A program made the position numbers and the translations under genes. A DNA stretch of 13,345 nt from Pseudomonas sp. GTDB lineage: Bacteria > Pseudomonadota > Gammaproteobacteria > Pseudomonadales > Pseudomonadaceae. The stretch lies in NCBI GenBank assembly GCA_030654635.1, contig JAURXE010000521.1:1-13345 (forward strand), written 5' to 3'. A model generated the notes under the pieces. That model had not been told where the DNA came from. It did no database searches and saw nothing but the letters and a program-made list of their open reading frames with translations. The stretch's first letter is position 1. Each line of letters starts with the position of its first letter. Shown here in pieces: positions 1,699-7,977 of this stretch.

Positions 1699-3048
1699 AT
1701 GAACCGCAATTTAGCGATCAAGCTCGGCGTGATTGCGCTGCTGATGGCGCTGCTGATGATTCCACTGTTGATGATCGGTGGCATGGTCAGCGACCGACAG
1801 GCGCTGCGTGACAGCGTGCTGGCCGACATTGCCCGCAGCTCCAGCGGCGAACAGCACCTAACCGGGCCGTTTTTGGTGGTGCCTTACCGCAAGACAGTAC
1901 GGGAATGGAAAACCCACGAAAAAACCGGGGTGCGCTACCTGGAAGAAAGCGAAGTTCGCAGCCGCCTGTATTTTTTGCCTGAGCAGTTTCAGCTCAACGG
2001 CAATGTGGTTACCGAAGAGCGCAAGCGCGGCATCTACCAGGCGCGGCTGTATCACAGCGATAACCAGATCAGCGGCCACTTCCAGCTGCCGGCGCAGTAC
2101 GGCATCACCGAGAGTTATGCCGATTACCGTTTCGAGCCGGCCTTTCTGAGCGTTGGCATCAGCGATATTCGCGGCATCGAGAACGACCTCAAATTGCGTC
2201 TCAATGGCACTGATCTGCCGTTTGCCGCCGGCAGCGCCGATCGCCTGCTGACCAATGGCGTGCATGCGCCGCTGCCCAATGTCGATGGGGTTAACGGCCA
2301 GCGTCTGGAGTTTGCCTTTAACCTCAAGCTGCAAGGCACTGGGCAACTGTGGGTGACGCCGGTGGGCCGCGAAACCAAGGTGCAGCTGAGTTCTAAGTGG
2401 CCACACCCAAGTTTTGTCGGCGAGTTTTTGCCGGTCAAGCGGGATGTCACCGACACGGGTTTTCTGGCCGACTGGCAGACCAGTTTCTTTGCCACCAATT
2501 TTGCTGAAGTGCTGGATGACTGCGCCTACAACGACAATTGCGATGCCTATAACAGCCGCGAATTTGGGGTGAGCTTTGTCGATCCGGTCGACCAATACCT
2601 GAAGACCGACCGGGCGATTAAATATGCCCTGCTGTTTATCGCCCTGACCTTTGCCGGCTTCTTCCTGTTCGAAGTGCTCAAGCGTTTAGCCGTACATCCG
2701 GTGCAATACGGTCTGGTCGGCCTGGCGCTGGCGCTGTTCTACCTGTTGCTGCTGTCACTGTCCGAGCACCTACCGTTCGCCACCGCCTACGCCATAGCTG
2801 CGGTGGCCTGCGTGTCCTTGCTGGGGGTGTACCTGGCCGCCGTACTCAAAAGCGCGCTGCGCGGTCTGGGTTTCGGCGCCGCCTTGGCGGCCCTCTACGC
2901 CATGTTGTATGGCCTGCTGCGCGCCGAAGATTACGCCCTGTTGATGGGCTCGCTGCTGGTGTTTGGCCTGCTGGCCGGGGTGATGCTGCTGACCCGCAAA
3001 CTCGACTGGTATGGGGTTGGCAAACCTGAGGTAAGCGACGCCGCCTAG
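1699..3048 (+). CDS. creD: Inner membrane protein CreD
   Basis: A 449-residue inner membrane protein of the CreD/Cet family, the main output gene of CreBC; it affects envelope integrity, colicin E2 tolerance and beta-lactam response in studied bacteria, but its biochemical role is unknown. One N-terminal membrane helix (about residues 8-28) is followed by a long periplasmic region (about 30-305) and a C-terminal block of about six helices. Family hallmarks are HPVQYGLVGLALALFYLLLL with the following SEHLPF, and KLDWYG near the end. Full length for the family. Start ATG has GGGGAG at 1685-1690 with 8-base spacing. Regulation is probably through the tandem CreB-like sites just upstream, independently of creC because a CBS gene separates them. 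Confidence 0.96.
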   Translation: MNRNLAIKLGVIALLMALLMIPLLMIGGMVSDRQALRDSVLADIARSSSGEQHLTGPFLVVPYRKTVREWKTHEKTGVRYLEESEVRSRLYFLPEQFQLNGNVVTEERKRGIYQARLYHSDNQISGHFQLPAQYGITESYADYRFEPAFLSVGISDIRGIENDLKLRLNGTDLPFAAGSADRLLTNGVHAPLPNVDGVNGQRLEFAFNLKLQGTGQLWVTPVGRETKVQLSSKWPHPSFVGEFLPVKRDVTDTGFLADWQTSFFATNFAEVLDDCAYNDNCDAYNSREFGVSFVDPVDQYLKTDRAIKYALLFIALTFAGFFLFEVLKRLAVHPVQYGLVGLALALFYLLLLSLSEHLPFATAYAIAAVACVSLLGVYLAAVLKSALRGLGFGAALAALYAMLYGLLRAEDYALLMGSLLVFGLLAGVMLLTRKLDWYGVGKPEVSDAA

Positions 3049-3085: not shown

Positions 3086-3092
3086 ATGGGCT

Positions 3093-3124
3093 GGTGGCCT
3101 CTTCGCTGCGCTCAGGAGTCCACC
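3093..3124. repeat. REP-like palindromic repeat, copy 1
   Basis: Imperfect palindrome: GGTGGCCTC (3093-3101) pairs with GAGTCCACC (3116-3124), 8 of 9 positions, around a loop containing TTCGCTGCGCTC (3102-3113). The same 12-base loop core and matching arms recur at 12540-12571. The two copies differ in arm sequence but keep pairing. A T6 run (3133-3138) follows eight bases later, just ahead of the Shine-Dalgarno of the next gene, so this copy could also act as a weak terminator or attenuator. Confidence 0.6.
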
Positions 3125-3148
3125 CTACAAACTTTTTTGGAGATTGCG

Positions 3149-3451
3149 ATGTTAATGCTGATGCGTGGTTTGGCCTGCTATCTGCTGGCCTTGGTACTGG
3201 CGGTGGTGGTGTTGGCGGGGCTGTTGTTTAGCCAGCAAGCGGATCTGATCAAGCAGCTGCTGTGGTCCGGGCAGTTGCTCAGTGAGCTGGCGTTGCTGAT
3301 TGTGCCGGCCGCTTTCTGGGAGGCGCTGACCGGTGTCAGTGGCGCCGGGCAGAACCCGGCAGTGCAGTCATTTTTGCAGCTGTGCGTGGCGCTGGGTCAG
3401 TTGGCCTTGTTGCCAGCGTTGGGCTTGTACCGCCTCTGGTATCGGTCATGA
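3149..3451 (+). CDS. Small hydrophobic membrane protein, downstream of creD
   Basis: A 100-residue protein with two probable membrane helices: about residues 6-26 (LACYLLALVLAVVVLAGLLF) and about 72-95 (FLQLCVALGQLALLPALGLY), joined by a hydrophobic stretch around LLSELALLIVPAAFWEAL. The start at 3149 is chosen because GGAG (3139-3142) sits six bases before it; an in-frame ATG at 3086 would put the N-terminus inside the REP-like repeat and adds an unlikely leader. It occupies the place after creD where P. aeruginosa has a small hypothetical gene (from memory). The stop overlaps the start of the next small ORF by four bases (ATGA). Function unknown; conserved position would suggest a CreD-related membrane role, which is inference. 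Confidence 0.78.
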   Translation: MLMLMRGLACYLLALVLAVVVLAGLLFSQQADLIKQLLWSGQLLSELALLIVPAAFWEALTGVSGAGQNPAVQSFLQLCVALGQLALLPALGLYRLWYRS

Positions 3452-3591
3452 GTGGGCATGTCGGCCTGCGCGACGATGCCCGGATTGGCGCGCTGCTGGC
3501 GGCGCAGATTGCCCGGCTGTTTTCGCCGTCCAGGGCCGCGTCGGCCGAGCAATTCCAAGACTGGCGCAAGGCCCAAGGGCGGCGGGGTTGA
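3448..3591 (+). CDS. Predicted 47-residue small protein, coupled to the preceding membrane gene
   Basis: The ATG at 3448 overlaps the preceding stop in an ATGA junction, a typical sign of translational coupling. The short product (MSGHVGLRDDARIGALLAA...) is amphipathic and basic, with no membrane segment, ending in QDWRKAQGRRG. Third codon positions are mostly G or C, as in the neighbours. It ends 15 bases before the stop of the convergent LOTUS gene. No Shine-Dalgarno of its own is clear. I do not recognise a family; it may be a real small protein or a chance frame. Confidence 0.5.
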   Translation: MSGHVGLRDDARIGALLAAQIARLFSPSRAASAEQFQDWRKAQGRRG

Positions 3592-3606
3592 TCGGCCCCG
3601 CAGCGC

Positions 3607-4497
3607 TCAGCTAAGCACCGGCTTGCTGCGATACCAGACCTGGATGCGTTCGCTGTCGGCGGGTTTGCGCTTTTGGATTTCAAACAACCCGGATTGATGG
3701 ATGACGTGGCGCCAGCTGCTGCAGCCGTACTTTTTCGGGTTTAGCTCGGGCCAGTCCAGGTGAATAAAACCTATGGCGGTGGTCAGGCTGGTCCAGCCGG
3801 CTTCATGGCAGGCACTTTCGGCGCGGCTCAGTTGCTGAACTATGGTGGTGCAGGGCCAGTCCACCGGTTGGCCGGGGACCAGGCCATAGAGCAGAACATC
3901 CCGCCAGGTGGTGGACTGCATAAAGGCATGGGCGTGCTCGGGGCCATGCTCCATGCCTTTGGTCCAGGCACGCAGCGCGCGATCATGCTGATCAATTTGT
4001 TGGTAGGTCTCATCCAGATAGAGCTCTGCCGCCTGGCAGCCGGTTTCGCTGAACAGGTCAAACTGCTGCATAAAGTGATGCACCAGATGATCGCGTCGCG
4101 CCACCAAGGCCGCCAGGTCTTGCTTGGCTTTTTGGTAGTCGTCTTCGCTTAGTTCACTGCCCCTGTACAGCTTCAAAGAAGGCTGGGCAGAGCCGTGTTG
4201 GGCAGCAATGTTAGCTTCCAGGTTGGTCTGCGGATGGTTGCGGTTGTTGCTGGCTAGCCTGGCGATTCCGCGGGTTGGCGGGGTTGCTCTGAGAGCGTCG
4301 CTTGGGTTGCGCAGATGGGGACGGTCGTGGGCGGCCAGCAGACGTTTCATCAGCTGCTCGTACTGCTGCAGCCTGAGGATGCAGCGCCCGACCTTGTGGC
4401 TGACACTGTCTTGCAAAGTGGCTAGCAGTTCGCCCTCTGGCTGTTCCATTGGGTTCATAAAGTGCGGGTCCAAAATTCGATCTGTAGTTACCGGCAT
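3607..4497 (-). CDS. HEPN-like / OST-HTH (LOTUS) domain protein, putative RNA-targeting factor
   Basis: A 296-residue soluble protein. Residues about 30-180 look all-helical: a first helix (VGRCILRLQQYEQLMKRLLA, 36-55), a variable polar linker (about 58-112), then a helix with RRDHLVHHF (134-142), where R135 to H140 is an R-x4-H with a polar residue after the Arg, as in HEPN RNases. Residues about 214-292 match OST-HTH/LOTUS: GWTSLTTAIGFI, then NPKKYGCSSWRHVI and a final FEIQKR...IQVWYR hairpin. LOTUS domains bind RNA (G-quadruplex RNA is reported for some). Together this suggests an RNA-binding, perhaps RNA-cleaving, protein; activity is inference. The start has no good Shine-Dalgarno; Met14 (4458) or Met17 are alternatives, and the first codons use fewer G/C third bases. 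It follows the GST gene by 67 bases. Confidence 0.85.
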   Translation of the reverse strand: MPVTTDRILDPHFMNPMEQPEGELLATLQDSVSHKVGRCILRLQQYEQLMKRLLAAHDRPHLRNPSDALRATPPTRGIARLASNNRNHPQTNLEANIAAQHGSAQPSLKLYRGSELSEDDYQKAKQDLAALVARRDHLVHHFMQQFDLFSETGCQAAELYLDETYQQIDQHDRALRAWTKGMEHGPEHAHAFMQSTTWRDVLLYGLVPGQPVDWPCTTIVQQLSRAESACHEAGWTSLTTAIGFIHLDWPELNPKKYGCSSWRHVIHQSGLFEIQKRKPADSERIQVWYRSKPVLS

Positions 4498-4564
4498 GTT
4501 TCGATAATCGCATCGTCTTCAGGGTAGGTGACAGGCGCAGCTCTGGGTACTTGCTCGCTTGCCA

Positions 4565-5188
4565 TTACAGCGGCGGCGCAGTGGCCAGCAGTGATGGGCG
4601 TTGGCTGACTACAGCATACCAGGCGGCCAGTTGCGGGTAGCGCTGACGCCAGGCCAGTTCGGGTTGACGCAAATCCACATAGCCCAGGGCGCAGGCCAGG
4701 CTGATGGCGGCCAGGTCAAAGTGCTCGCTTAAACTGCCGCTGGCGACTTGTTCAAAATATGCCAGGGCCCGTTCGATTTTGTCTTGCTGGCCGGCGAGCC
4801 AGCTGTCCCAACGTTTATCTGCCGGGCGCAAAAAGCTTTCGTAGCGGATCAGTACGGCGGCATCCAGCAGCGCATCGGCCAGGGCGCAGAGGGTCAGGCC
4901 GTTCCAGCGTGGGCTGCCGCTGGCGGCTAACAAGGGCTGACCACTGTGCTGCAGGTCGAGGTATTCGAGTATCACCCGGCTGTCGAACAGCAGGCTGCCA
5001 TCGGTCAGGCGCAAGGCGGGAATCTTACCGGCCGGATTGGCGGCGTTGACCTCGGGGCTGGGGCTGATCGGGCTGAGTTGCACTTCTTGTAGTGCAACCT
5101 TGGCCAGCTGGTCGGTCTCGTGCAACAGCACCATGACCTTGCGTACGAAGGGCGAGGTGGGGGAATAAAACAGCGTCATGCTCGGCAT
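4565..5188 (-). CDS. Glutathione S-transferase family protein (YibF-like)
   Basis: A 207-residue cytosolic GST. The N-terminal thioredoxin-like domain (about 1-80) carries TSPFVRKVMVLLHE (11-24), where the Ser/Pro replaces the catalytic Cys region and is the usual glutathione site of this class, then NPAGKIPAL with the cis-Pro and DSRVILEYLD (Ser for glutathione binding). The C-terminal helical domain includes the N-capping pattern around DLAAISLACALGYVDLR and PQLAAWYAVVSQRPS. Start at 5188 is set by AAGGAG five bases ahead; an in-frame ATG 78 bases upstream would add 26 residues before the conserved N-terminus. Substrate unknown; likely detoxification or redox role. It lies 78 bases after the exonuclease gene on the same strand, perhaps co-transcribed. 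Confidence 0.92.
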   Translation of the reverse strand: MPSMTLFYSPTSPFVRKVMVLLHETDQLAKVALQEVQLSPISPSPEVNAANPAGKIPALRLTDGSLLFDSRVILEYLDLQHSGQPLLAASGSPRWNGLTLCALADALLDAAVLIRYESFLRPADKRWDSWLAGQQDKIERALAYFEQVASGSLSEHFDLAAISLACALGYVDLRQPELAWRQRYPQLAAWYAVVSQRPSLLATAPPL

Positions 5189-5266
5189 CTGGACTCCTTG
5201 GCTGAGAGCGGTAATCAGGCGCCTATCCTTGCTGTAATTTTGCTTCTCGGCAAGCTGGAGTCGCAC

Positions 5267-5974
5267 TTACAGCCGATGCGCTTGCTGACGGCGGCGTTCG
5301 GTGGTCAGGCGTTGTTCAATCGCCAGCAGGCTGTTTAGGTCCTGCCGGCGCGCGCGGCTAAATAGCATCAGCGCCAGTTCGGCGGTAACCAGGGCGTCGG
5401 CGCCGGCGTTGTGGCGTTCGGCGATCTGCAAGCCGCAGTGTTTGAGCCAGTCATCCAACCCGCCCTTGTGGATGCCGGCGTCGGGGTAGAGCAGCGGCGC
5501 CAGGTCTGCCAGGTCGATAAAGGGATGTTGCAACGAGTAGTTGAGGCTGGTTTTCAGCGCGCGGCTGAGCATGCGTTGATCGAAGGGGGCGTGAAAGCCC
5601 AGCACCGGGCTGGCGCCGATAAACTCCATGCAGGCCAGCAAGCCTTCGGCCGGGTCGCAACCGGCGGCGATGGCGCTGGGGCCGAGGCCGTGAATCAGTA
5701 CGCTCTGATTATGCGGCTGGGCGGCGCGTTGCAAGGTGCATTCAAATTGCTGGCCCAGGTCGATGGCGCCGTGCTCGATGACCACGGCGCCGATCGACAG
5801 CACCAGGTCTTTGTTGGTGTTCAGGCCGCTGGTTTCCAAGTCCAGCACCACCAGGCGTTGCTCGTTGAGTGGCCCGTCGCTGAGCGGTGCGGCGCTGCGC
5901 AGCTGCTCGCGGCGACGCAACTGGTCGGCGGGCAGCTGCGCGCGGCAGGGCTTGAGCCAGTTGAGCAGGCTCAT
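5267..5974 (-). CDS. DnaQ-like 3'-5' exonuclease (DEDDh family)
   Basis: A 235-residue protein with an N-terminal helical lead (1-38) and a DEDDh exonuclease fold (about 40-205). Motif Exo I is VVLDLETSG with D45 and E47; Exo II is GFHAPFDQRML with D132; Exo III is HNAGADAL with H188 and D193 (H-x4-D). All five catalytic residues are present, so it should hydrolyse DNA or RNA 3' ends using two metal ions. It is too short and too diverged to be assigned as the polymerase III epsilon subunit of the replisome. Its ATG overlaps the stop of the upstream CBS/DUF294 gene (ATGA at 5974-5971), indicating coupled translation. In other gammaproteobacteria this pair is, from memory, often near a sodium/acetate-type symporter; none is visible here. 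Confidence 0.92.
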   Translation of the reverse strand: MSLLNWLKPCRAQLPADQLRRREQLRSAAPLSDGPLNEQRLVVLDLETSGLNTNKDLVLSIGAVVIEHGAIDLGQQFECTLQRAAQPHNQSVLIHGLGPSAIAAGCDPAEGLLACMEFIGASPVLGFHAPFDQRMLSRALKTSLNYSLQHPFIDLADLAPLLYPDAGIHKGGLDDWLKHCGLQIAERHNAGADALVTAELALMLFSRARRQDLNSLLAIEQRLTTERRRQQAHRL

Positions 5975-7905
5975 AGCTGGTAACGCAGCGCCAGGCTGCT
6001 TTGCAGACGTTGGGCTTGGCGGAAGGATTCGCGCAGGATGCGCCGGTCCAGTTGATTGAGGCTGTCGGGGTCGAGGCGGTTGGAGAACGGCAAGCCGCTG
6101 CGCGCTTGCTGCTGGTGCAGTTGCAGGCGGGTTTGCTGGATAAAGTGATAGCCCTCGACATAGGCGGCGCTGTCTTGGCGGTCGATCACGCCTTGCTCGG
6201 CCAGCAGGCGCAGGCGCTCCAGGGTGTTGCTGGCGGCGATGCCGTGGGCCAGGGCCAGCAGGCGGGCGCCGTCGACAAAAGGCGTGAGGCCTTGCACCTT
6301 GAGGTCGAGGGTGTCTTTTTCCAGACCCTTGCGCGCCACCACAAAGTCGCGCAAACGACCTACCGGCGGTTTTTGCCGCAAGGCATTTTCAGCCAGCATA
6401 CGCTGGAACAACGGGTTGTCGGCCACCAGGTCGAGCAGTTCTTGCTGCAGTTGCGCGCAGCCCTCTTCCGCGCCCCAGACCACCCGTAGATCGAAGAAAA
6501 TACTCGAAGCCAGCAGGTTCTCTGGCGTCGCCTCGCGCACAAAGCCGTTAAAACGTCGCGTCCATTCCTTGCGCGACAGGCACAGCGTCGGGTTACTGGC
6601 CATGATCTGGCCTTTGCACAGGCTGAAGCCGCAGCTGTCCAGGGCCTGGTTGATGTGCTCGGCGAGGGGCAGCAAGCGCCCGCGAATGGCCGCGGCCTGG
6701 GCGGCATCGGCGGCGTCGAACAGGATGCCGTTGTCCTGATCGGTGTACAGGGTTTGTTCGCGGCGGCCTTCGCTGCCAAAGCACAGCCAGCTGAACGCCA
6801 CGCCGGGGTCGCCGAGGGCTTCGATGCTCAACTCAATCACCCGACACACGCAGTGGTCGTTGAGCTGGGTGATGATCTGGGTGATCTGGGTCGAGGAGGC
6901 GCCGTGGGCGAGCATATGATCGACCAGTTGGCGAATGTCGCTGCGCAGCGCCACCAGGGTGTCCAGCTTGCCGGCATGGCGGATGCTGCGGGCCAGGTGG
7001 ACCAAATCGACGCGTTGCAGGGAGAACAAGTCGCGCTCGGAAATCACCCCGCACAGGCGCCCGTCCTCCACCAGGCAGACGTGGGCAATATGCCGTTCGG
7101 TCATCGCCATCGCCGCGTCGAAGGCGCTGGCCTGGGGCGACAAGTGGAAGGGTTGCTGGGTCATTAGCTGGCTGATTGGTTGATTCATATCGCTGCAGCC
7201 GTCGGCCACCACCCGGCGCAAGTCGCGCAGGGTAAAGATCCCCAGGGGTTTGAGGGCCGCATCGACTATCACCATGCTGCCGACTTGCTGCTCGTGCATC
7301 TGCTTCACCGCCTCGCGCAGCGGTGTGTGCGGCCGGCAGCTGACCGGTTGCTGCATCGACAGCTCGCCCAGGCGAGCCTCCAGCGAGTACTGGGCGCCGA
7401 GGGTTTCGGCAGCGCGCAACTGGATCTGCTGATTGACCTGGTCGAGCAGGCTGCTGACCCCGCGCAAGGCAAAGTCGCGCAGCGGATTGGACAGGCTGAA
7501 CAGTTTGATAAAGGCCGGTTTATTCAGCAGCAGGCAGAAGGTGTCTTGGGCTGCCAGGTGCTCGGTGCGGGTGGCCCGCTCGCCGATCAGCGCGGCCAGC
7601 GGGAAACACTCGCCGGCACTGATTTCAAAGGTGGTCTGGCTGGTGTCTTGGCCGCTGTGGGGCCGCTCGCCGTGTACCCGGCCTTGTTTGACGATGTAGA
7701 AGTGCTCAATCGGCCCGTCTGCAGGTTTGATAATGCTCTCGCCGGCGGCATAAAAGCGCAGCTGGCAGTTCTCCAGCAGAAAGGCCAGATGGGCGTTCTC
7801 CATCTGATTGAAGGGTGGGTATTTGCGCAAAAACTCCATCAGTCCATGGATATTCTGCTGCACCGCCACCTTGCCTGTTTGGGCAAAACCATCCGCTTGG
7901 CTCAT
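5971..7905 (-). CDS. cNMP-binding / CBS-pair / DUF294 nucleotidyltransferase-like protein
   Basis: A 644-residue cytosolic multidomain protein. Order: cyclic-nucleotide-binding-like domain (about 25-145, with GESIIKPADGPIEHFYIVKQGRV), CBS1 (about 182-236, ending GIFTLRDL), CBS2 (about 247-300, ending GVISERDL), then a DUF294 putative nucleotidyltransferase with the GS...DxD signature GSEGRREQTLYTDQDN (about 377-392) and the DUF294 C-terminal helical domain (about 495-640). It resembles GlnD-like nucleotidyltransferases in architecture, so it may modify a partner according to nucleotide levels; the target is unknown. Start: ATG at 7905 with GGAAG six bases ahead is preferred over the GTG one codon upstream. 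The stop overlaps the exonuclease start (ATGA). A divergent gene and an inverted repeat lie upstream. Confidence 0.93.
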   Translation of the reverse strand: MSQADGFAQTGKVAVQQNIHGLMEFLRKYPPFNQMENAHLAFLLENCQLRFYAAGESIIKPADGPIEHFYIVKQGRVHGERPHSGQDTSQTTFEISAGECFPLAALIGERATRTEHLAAQDTFCLLLNKPAFIKLFSLSNPLRDFALRGVSSLLDQVNQQIQLRAAETLGAQYSLEARLGELSMQQPVSCRPHTPLREAVKQMHEQQVGSMVIVDAALKPLGIFTLRDLRRVVADGCSDMNQPISQLMTQQPFHLSPQASAFDAAMAMTERHIAHVCLVEDGRLCGVISERDLFSLQRVDLVHLARSIRHAGKLDTLVALRSDIRQLVDHMLAHGASSTQITQIITQLNDHCVCRVIELSIEALGDPGVAFSWLCFGSEGRREQTLYTDQDNGILFDAADAAQAAAIRGRLLPLAEHINQALDSCGFSLCKGQIMASNPTLCLSRKEWTRRFNGFVREATPENLLASSIFFDLRVVWGAEEGCAQLQQELLDLVADNPLFQRMLAENALRQKPPVGRLRDFVVARKGLEKDTLDLKVQGLTPFVDGARLLALAHGIAASNTLERLRLLAEQGVIDRQDSAAYVEGYHFIQQTRLQLHQQQARSGLPFSNRLDPDSLNQLDRRILRESFRQAQRLQSSLALRYQL

Positions 7906-7977
7906 CACGCACTTCCAATCGTATTAACGCGCCATCATCGGCCGAACAGTCGCACCGGCCCATTGGACGTAAGTCTA

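Follow-up and report, generated by a model that had tools for sequence, protein, structure and literature searches.

Within a 13,345-nucleotide stretch of Pseudomonas sp. DNA (assembly GCA_030654635.1, contig JAURXE010000521.1; hereafter the window), an open reading frame at 3607-4497 on the minus strand encodes a 296-residue protein in which HEPN-type motifs and a LOTUS (OST-HTH) domain are combined in one chain with a conserved predicted active site, an architecture supported by comparison with its homologues. The reading preferred here, at a probability of roughly 60%, is that the protein is a single-polypeptide accessory RNA-targeting effector, an HEPN RNase with a LOTUS domain acting in second-line defence; it probably functions as a small enzyme of defence or element conflict and not in housekeeping, and would both sense and cut RNA. 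Direct observations on which this draws are the two-domain architecture, a near-invariant HEPN motif, a LOTUS match and fold, mobile or restriction contexts in many relatives, and the insertion of the gene in the window. The gene and its parts are as follows.

3607..4497, minus strand: HEPN-LOTUS gene (open reading frame; 76 homologues at E<=1e-3; low ratio of nonsynonymous to synonymous substitution, dN/dS, 0.20 and 0.17)
3886..4440, minus strand: N-terminal HEPN-like helical domain, residues 20-204 (models of the window protein and of a relative)
4345..4359, minus strand: E47-x3-K51 in the first long helix, corresponding to the HEPN motif Ex3[KR]
4147..4323, minus strand: residues 59-117, a variable insert that has degenerated in the clade of the window protein (alignment, model confidence, dN/dS)
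4078..4095, minus strand: R135-x4-H140, predicted RNase active-site motif
3622..3858, minus strand: OST-HTH/LOTUS winged-helix domain, residues 214-292 (Pfam profile, fold)

Conservation was assessed in an alignment of 109 distinct sequences, made up of 76 homologues from one protein search, 33 full-length genome and plasmid copies and the window's own, with duplicates removed. The motif of the window protein reads R135-D136-H137-L138-V139-H140-H141-F142 and its early helix G37-R38-CILRLQQYE47-QLM-K51-RLL, as the sequence-only reading had described in naming an R-x4-H with an acidic residue after the arginine and a helix of the GRxxxxxxQxEQLxKxLL type. Conservation of R135 and H140 among homologues had been set beforehand as a check, and it is nearly complete: R135 is found in 109/109 sequences and H140 in 108/109, with a single Q, while H141 (106/109), F142 (105/109, L in 4), E47 (107/107, 2 gaps) and K51 (105/108, 1 gap) vary little more. 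The acidic residue is a property of the window protein but not of the family, for which the consensus is RNxLVHHF, with N after the arginine in 107/109 and D in only two sequences, the window protein and P0001. A polar N or D in this position in all 109, together with the upstream Ex3[KR], agrees with the HEPN superfamily definition, in which the R of Rx4-6H is followed by N, D or H and Ex3[KR] lies upstream (PMC3710099). Because R135, H140, E47, K51 and W262 (identical in 109/109) are near-invariant and dN/dS is low (0.20 and 0.17 for the whole gene against two nearby relatives; 0.08 in helix 1, 0.09 in the LOTUS domain, 0.37 and 0.32 in residues 59-117), the reading frame and its conserved HEPN and LOTUS motifs are, by sequence comparison, not due to chance, and the gene evolves under purifying selection.

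Modeling of the window protein placed helices at residues 20-58, 118-145, 151-183, 186-194 and 196-204, with a predicted local distance difference test score (pLDDT) below 50 for residues 59-114. The segment joining helix 1 to the motif helix (about 59-117), which has the form KTLGxLVGxL in other relatives, is unrecognisable in the window's clade and is the fastest-changing stretch of the protein; a compensated frameshift was excluded as the source of this divergence, the other two frames having stops and no recognisable helix. The N-domain of a relative was modeled as a bundle of long helices (pLDDT 90) in which R-x4-H ends a long helix directly before the last long helix, and its best structural neighbour was the HepT toxin, with weak scores and with no aligned counterpart for the first ~35 residues of HepT. 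Profile comparison brought the motif into register with those of HepT and DUF3644 at weak probabilities of 0.7-22%, and relative to 20 shuffles the scores were above for each of three templates in one run and mixed in another. The N-domain gave no match in Pfam (above cut-off), NCBIfam, PADLOC or PHROGs, a sequence search of the PDB found no HEPN entry, and the Foldseek rows listed were helical proteins, none of them HEPN and none at E<=0.001; sub-cut-off Pfam matches on relatives, to DUF3644 (E 0.012, P0009) and DUF4054 (E 0.0009, P0013), serve as leads only. A canonical HEPN fold has four helices, with the motif closing helix 3 and an insert between helices 2 and 3. The proposal that the N-terminal half forms such a bundle was sustained only moderately, by the long-helix bundle with HepT as nearest fold and against weak scores; the domain is a putative HEPN homologue.

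The claim of a C-terminal LOTUS segment was upheld: GWTSL...NPKKYG is present at residues 234-258, and residues 214-279 match Pfam OST-HTH (PF12872) at E 1.8e-7 and 31.4 bits, above the cut-off of 23.8. The predicted structure also shows a LOTUS winged-helix fold. When the whole genome was scanned (a 3.1 Mb, 91%-complete assembly of 791 contigs, of which the window is one), the protein scored 34.3 bits and was the sole OST-HTH match. For an N-terminal DUF88/NYN nuclease, Pfam gave no NYN match at E<=10. LOTUS domains are best known from animal germ cells, as an RNA-linked module of germ granules and piRNA factors, and G-quadruplex binding by LOTUS domains is the subject of one reference title.

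The HEPN-LOTUS gene is rare and patchy. In the window's genus, 13 of the 298 genomes gave a match of any kind, eight of them full length (the window's included); in its family 40/398 did so, comprising 21 full-length, 14 LOTUS-only, 3 broken and 2 HEPN-only cases. At the level of class, 12/369 genomes had a match, which beyond the window were one HEPN part at a contig edge, one HEPN-only and nine LOTUS-only; at the level of phylum the figure was 10/398, two of these being full-length copies (that of the window and another from its family). A phage collection held no relatives at E 1e-5, and ten plasmid records carry one. HEPN-only relatives of ~180-210 residues also occur (L049:2674-3276, L049:16575-17201 and L053:9717-10250), the latter two adjoining integrases of Zot-encoding inoviruses. 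A search begun from such HEPN-only relatives returned 64 proteins (4 already known), all 64 with R[NDH]x3H; 41 have the size of a HEPN-only protein (<=215 residues) and 23 are longer, and the tails of 22 of the longer proteins aligned to the LOTUS columns with an hhalign probability of 99%. The 23rd (P0100, 365 residues), left out of the tail alignment, appears by eye to have the HEPN domain followed by two tandem LOTUS units. Sources of the 64 include Arenicella, Pseudoxanthomonas, Stieleria and a metagenome-assembled genome (MAG) of Verrucomicrobiota, so that the HEPN family extends past Pseudomonadota.

Loci of relatives were picked by protein homology and not by neighbourhood, and the 33 intact copies were assigned to hsd operons (8), the core of integrative and conjugative elements (ICE; 8), other restriction-adjoining positions (2), other contexts (13) and the window's clade (2; L001, L002). 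The eight hsd copies (L043, L045, L094-L098, L100) lie within type I operons between hsdS and hsdR, in L043 with spacers of 10 nt towards hsdS and 3 nt towards hsdR. Decayed remnants were found between the same two genes in three genomes of the genus (L050:8525-8770, L184:5379-5525, L185:2675-2971); the hsdR beside them is full length in L050 and L184, and in L185 runs off the contig end, matching in two overlapping pieces. A reverse search from hsdR gave a match of any kind in 66/179 genomes of the genus, and among the four genomes with an hsdR of at least 86% identity the HEPN-LOTUS gene is intact in two (G082, G064) and decayed in two (G058, G076). In 12 ICE-type cores the gene holds one fixed position, following an STY4528-like gene and preceding AcaB/PFL_4669-ssb-topB; eight of these copies are intact (L041, L042, L060, L090-L093, L099), that of L060 on a conjugative plasmid, and four are frameshifted or interrupted (L048, L103, L108, L109). 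Identity with InrR of ICEclc is improbable: the HEPN-LOTUS gene lies upstream of the AcaB-like gene, whereas the published ICEclc cluster runs ORF95213, inrR, ssb, topoisomerase (PMC2892462), the comparison being one of published gene order only.

Further partners are of several kinds. A type IIG restriction enzyme gene overlaps the HEPN-LOTUS gene by 4 bp in L059, and a convergent hsdR adjoins it in L062. Nearby genes elsewhere encode an OLD/Gabija-like ATPase (L102), an Mrr nuclease with a ThsB-like TIR fragment (L105), an nSTAND-S1 protein (L047), a transposase (L044), a RES-domain protein 3 nt upstream (L052), and a FitAB/VapBC-type pair with inovirus genes (L106); L058, L061 and L063 are plasmid copies, and suggestive neighbours were not found in L046, L101 and L104, L107 falling outside the neighbour scan. 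The TIR fragment is a 103-residue open reading frame (L105:7678-7986) ~1.5 kb upstream, matching positions 2-84 of the 319 in the PADLOC ThsB model. A scan of IMG/VR gave ten loci, in eight of which an M78 (ImmA/IrrE-like) protease gene stands directly upstream or one gene further; an XRE regulator precedes M78 in six, and a GmrSD type IV gene intervenes in three (L195, L197, L198). The resulting cassette of XRE, M78 metalloprotease, sometimes GmrSD, and then HEPN-LOTUS is seen at L195:261-4344 and also in L192-L194, L196-L198 and L201; the contig of L199 begins at the gene, and in L200 the gene adjoins phage tail genes. Association with type I (twice), type IIG and type IV restriction represents distinct sorts of link, reported here as raw counts with no background rate. 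Because the operon partners in relatives are hsdS/hsdR, XRE-M78 with or without GmrSD, and a type IIG enzyme, the contexts point to defence or mobile-element conflict. The sequence-only reading had seen no antitoxin or partner gene; none adjoins in the window, but relatives do have such operon partners.

In the window itself the gene is an orphan insertion behind GST, since the GST-creD site lacks it in the loci read from other genomes of the genus. The neighbouring genes are as follows.

4565..5266, minus strand: GST, upstream same-strand neighbour 67 bp away, a core gene (Pfam)
3086-3451, plus strand: hydrophobic 121-residue open reading frame between creD and HEPN-LOTUS, with no Pfam family
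1699-3048, plus strand: creD, on the other side of the insertion site (CreD Pfam E 1e-161)
5971-7908: DUF294 nucleotidyltransferase, third gene upstream in the same gene string (Pfam)

A sample of 40 genus genomes was surveyed, and in the best 29 GST loci besides the window's, with 1.5 kb flanks, the HEPN-LOTUS gene was found in none (0/29). GST and creD are convergent neighbours in 23 of these, with a median gap of 230 bp and a widest gap of 1362 bp filled by other sequence (L126), and creD is outside the flank in the other six. The distance from GST to the 121-residue frame at the empty site of L186 is 132 bp. Two other Pseudomonadaceae MAGs (L001, L002) share the insertion behind GST. Relatives of the 121-residue frame stand beside creD in L186 and L187, where the HEPN-LOTUS gene was not found.

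As to mechanism, the N-domain would act as an HEPN-type metal-independent endoribonuclease through R135, N or D136 and H140 with E47-x3-K51, perhaps as a dimer, while the LOTUS winged helix may bind RNA and either select the substrate or keep the enzyme latent until infection. The usual task in relatives is likely second-line growth arrest once a phage or competing element has passed DNA restriction, the gene being slotted into restriction operons or mobile elements, by analogy with the HEPN anticodon nuclease PrrC in its type I operon; in the window genome a gene of this kind has inserted behind GST as an orphan. A more specific form, that LOTUS guides or gates the RNase across a bacterial defence family plugged in turn into type I, IIG and IV loci as an RNA-level back-up, and so a LOTUS-based counterpart of PrrC, is offered tentatively.

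In a tree of 67 thinned sequences (INDEPENDENCE) the hsd copies and the ICE copies each form nearly a single clade, with two label changes each, and all contexts together require 14 changes compared with 30.7 in shuffles; each of the two groups may therefore have had one origin, and the main hsd association, because the hsd copies are nearly one clade, may be a single event kept across several genera. The protein might instead serve the mobile element, its RNase acting in addiction, in competition between elements or in the regulation of ICE transfer genes, the restriction link being secondary, as the 12 ICE-core loci with the gene in the same position, the ten plasmid records and the HEPN-only cousins beside inoviral integrases would suggest; however, the gene has also been retained within hsd operons across several of the family's genera and occurs beside defence genes, and a third of the ICE copies (4/12) are broken, contrary to an essential ICE role, so that this alternative is considered unlikely. 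A housekeeping or regulatory RNA-processing function is consistent with the solitary window copy behind core genes and with the ties of LOTUS proteins elsewhere to RNA regulation (PMC2848206). The housekeeping RNA role that the sequence-only reading had entertained is nonetheless disfavoured by the scarcity of full-length copies (8/298), a site empty in 29/29 loci, operon partners in relatives and decay in place in three hsd loci, and is quite improbable.

Two alternatives concern the HEPN domain itself. It could be non-catalytic and serve only in RNA binding or dimerisation, a role proposed for HEPN domains that lack the motif (PMC3710099); weak structural and profile scores and the one H140Q homologue favour this, but R-x4-H is near-invariant (108/109, and 64/64 among wider relatives), which would be unneeded without catalysis, and the idea is judged improbable. 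Alternatively, it could be a toxin of the HepT type that an MNT nucleotidyltransferase silences, with the DUF294 protein as a candidate, given that HepT is the closest fold and that DUF294 is encoded in the same gene string. In HepT, silencing acts through the Tyr of RX4HXY (PMC7641770), whereas the corresponding residue is F in 105 and L in 4 of the 109 aligned sequences and never Y in the 64 wider relatives, and DUF294-dnaQ-GST-creD occurs without the HEPN-LOTUS gene in L148. Because of this last finding the co-occurrence with DUF294 is likely a coincidence, although Table 1 of PMC3710099 includes the C-terminal domain of DUF294 proteins with the HEPN families; with the Tyr absent, MNT-type silencing was rejected and the possibility is very remote.

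The preferred reading, a HEPN-LOTUS effector of second-line defence, can be placed among known systems. Like the HEPN RNases (HepT PF01934, DUF3644/EC042_2821, PrrC/RloC, Abi), the protein has Rx4-6H with N or D after the R and Ex3K, and tentatively, on the predicted fold, a motif that closes a core helix ahead of a long final one and a long variable insert; unlike them it lacks a match to the Pfam, NCBIfam and PADLOC HEPN models, and its partner domain, LOTUS, is absent from the fusions in Table 1 of PMC3710099. That table connects many of the HEPN families with restriction operons. It also records EC042_2821, which overlaps DUF3644, as fused to a winged helix-turn-helix. As with PrrC, eight relatives are HEPN-motif proteins encoded in a type I hsd operon, and prrC is placed between hsdS and hsdR; the window copy, however, has GST and creD in place of hsd neighbours, and in place of the ABC-ATPase of PrrC/RloC it has a LOTUS domain (OST-HTH being the only Pfam match above cut-off). 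The prrC gene forms part of the EcoprrI operon, and its product stays sequestered within the enzyme complex up to infection by phage T4 (PMC3874165). The analogy rests on position and motif, and the window protein is not a PrrC. Nor is it a HepT, this being excluded by the F or L at the AMPylated Tyr; HepT is the best structural match of the modeled N-domain, but no MNT gene is adjacent, the neighbours being GST and the 121-residue frame. Bacterial NYN/DUF88 (LK-nuclease) OST-HTH proteins share the single-chain architecture of an RNase-like domain with OST-HTH, except that here an HEPN-like domain replaces the DUF88 nuclease, which is described as fused in "almost all" bacterial OST-HTH proteins (PMC2848206). 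OST-HTH is also found in proposed effectors of ternary conflict systems, one earlier proposal, though fused there to S1 instead of HEPN and within multi-gene systems (PMC8195603).

No description of HEPN fused to LOTUS/OST-HTH was found in the accessible portions of the openly licensed literature on these domains; in PMC3710099, Table 1 holds no OST-HTH fusion and the term, in the text available, is confined to the reference list. If correct, the preferred reading would equip restriction loci of several kinds with an RNA-targeting arm and assign to LOTUS a concrete enzymatic function in bacterial immunity. With one small protein, a defined active site and recurring operon partners to work on, the idea is directly testable; more speculatively, it may bear on the origin of LOTUS use in RNA conflict in animals.

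Some details of the gene remain to be given. No clear ribosome-binding site was seen on inspection of the upstream sequence, a promoter scan gave no sigma-70-like promoter in 3300-5400, and Rfam had no matches across the window. The start codon is uncertain, with these alternatives on the minus strand.

4497, minus strand: M1
4458, minus strand: M14
4449, minus strand: M17

In the alignment, the first residue of P0001 and of P0003 coincides with M14 and that of P0009 with M17, and the real start may be M14 or M17 instead of M1.
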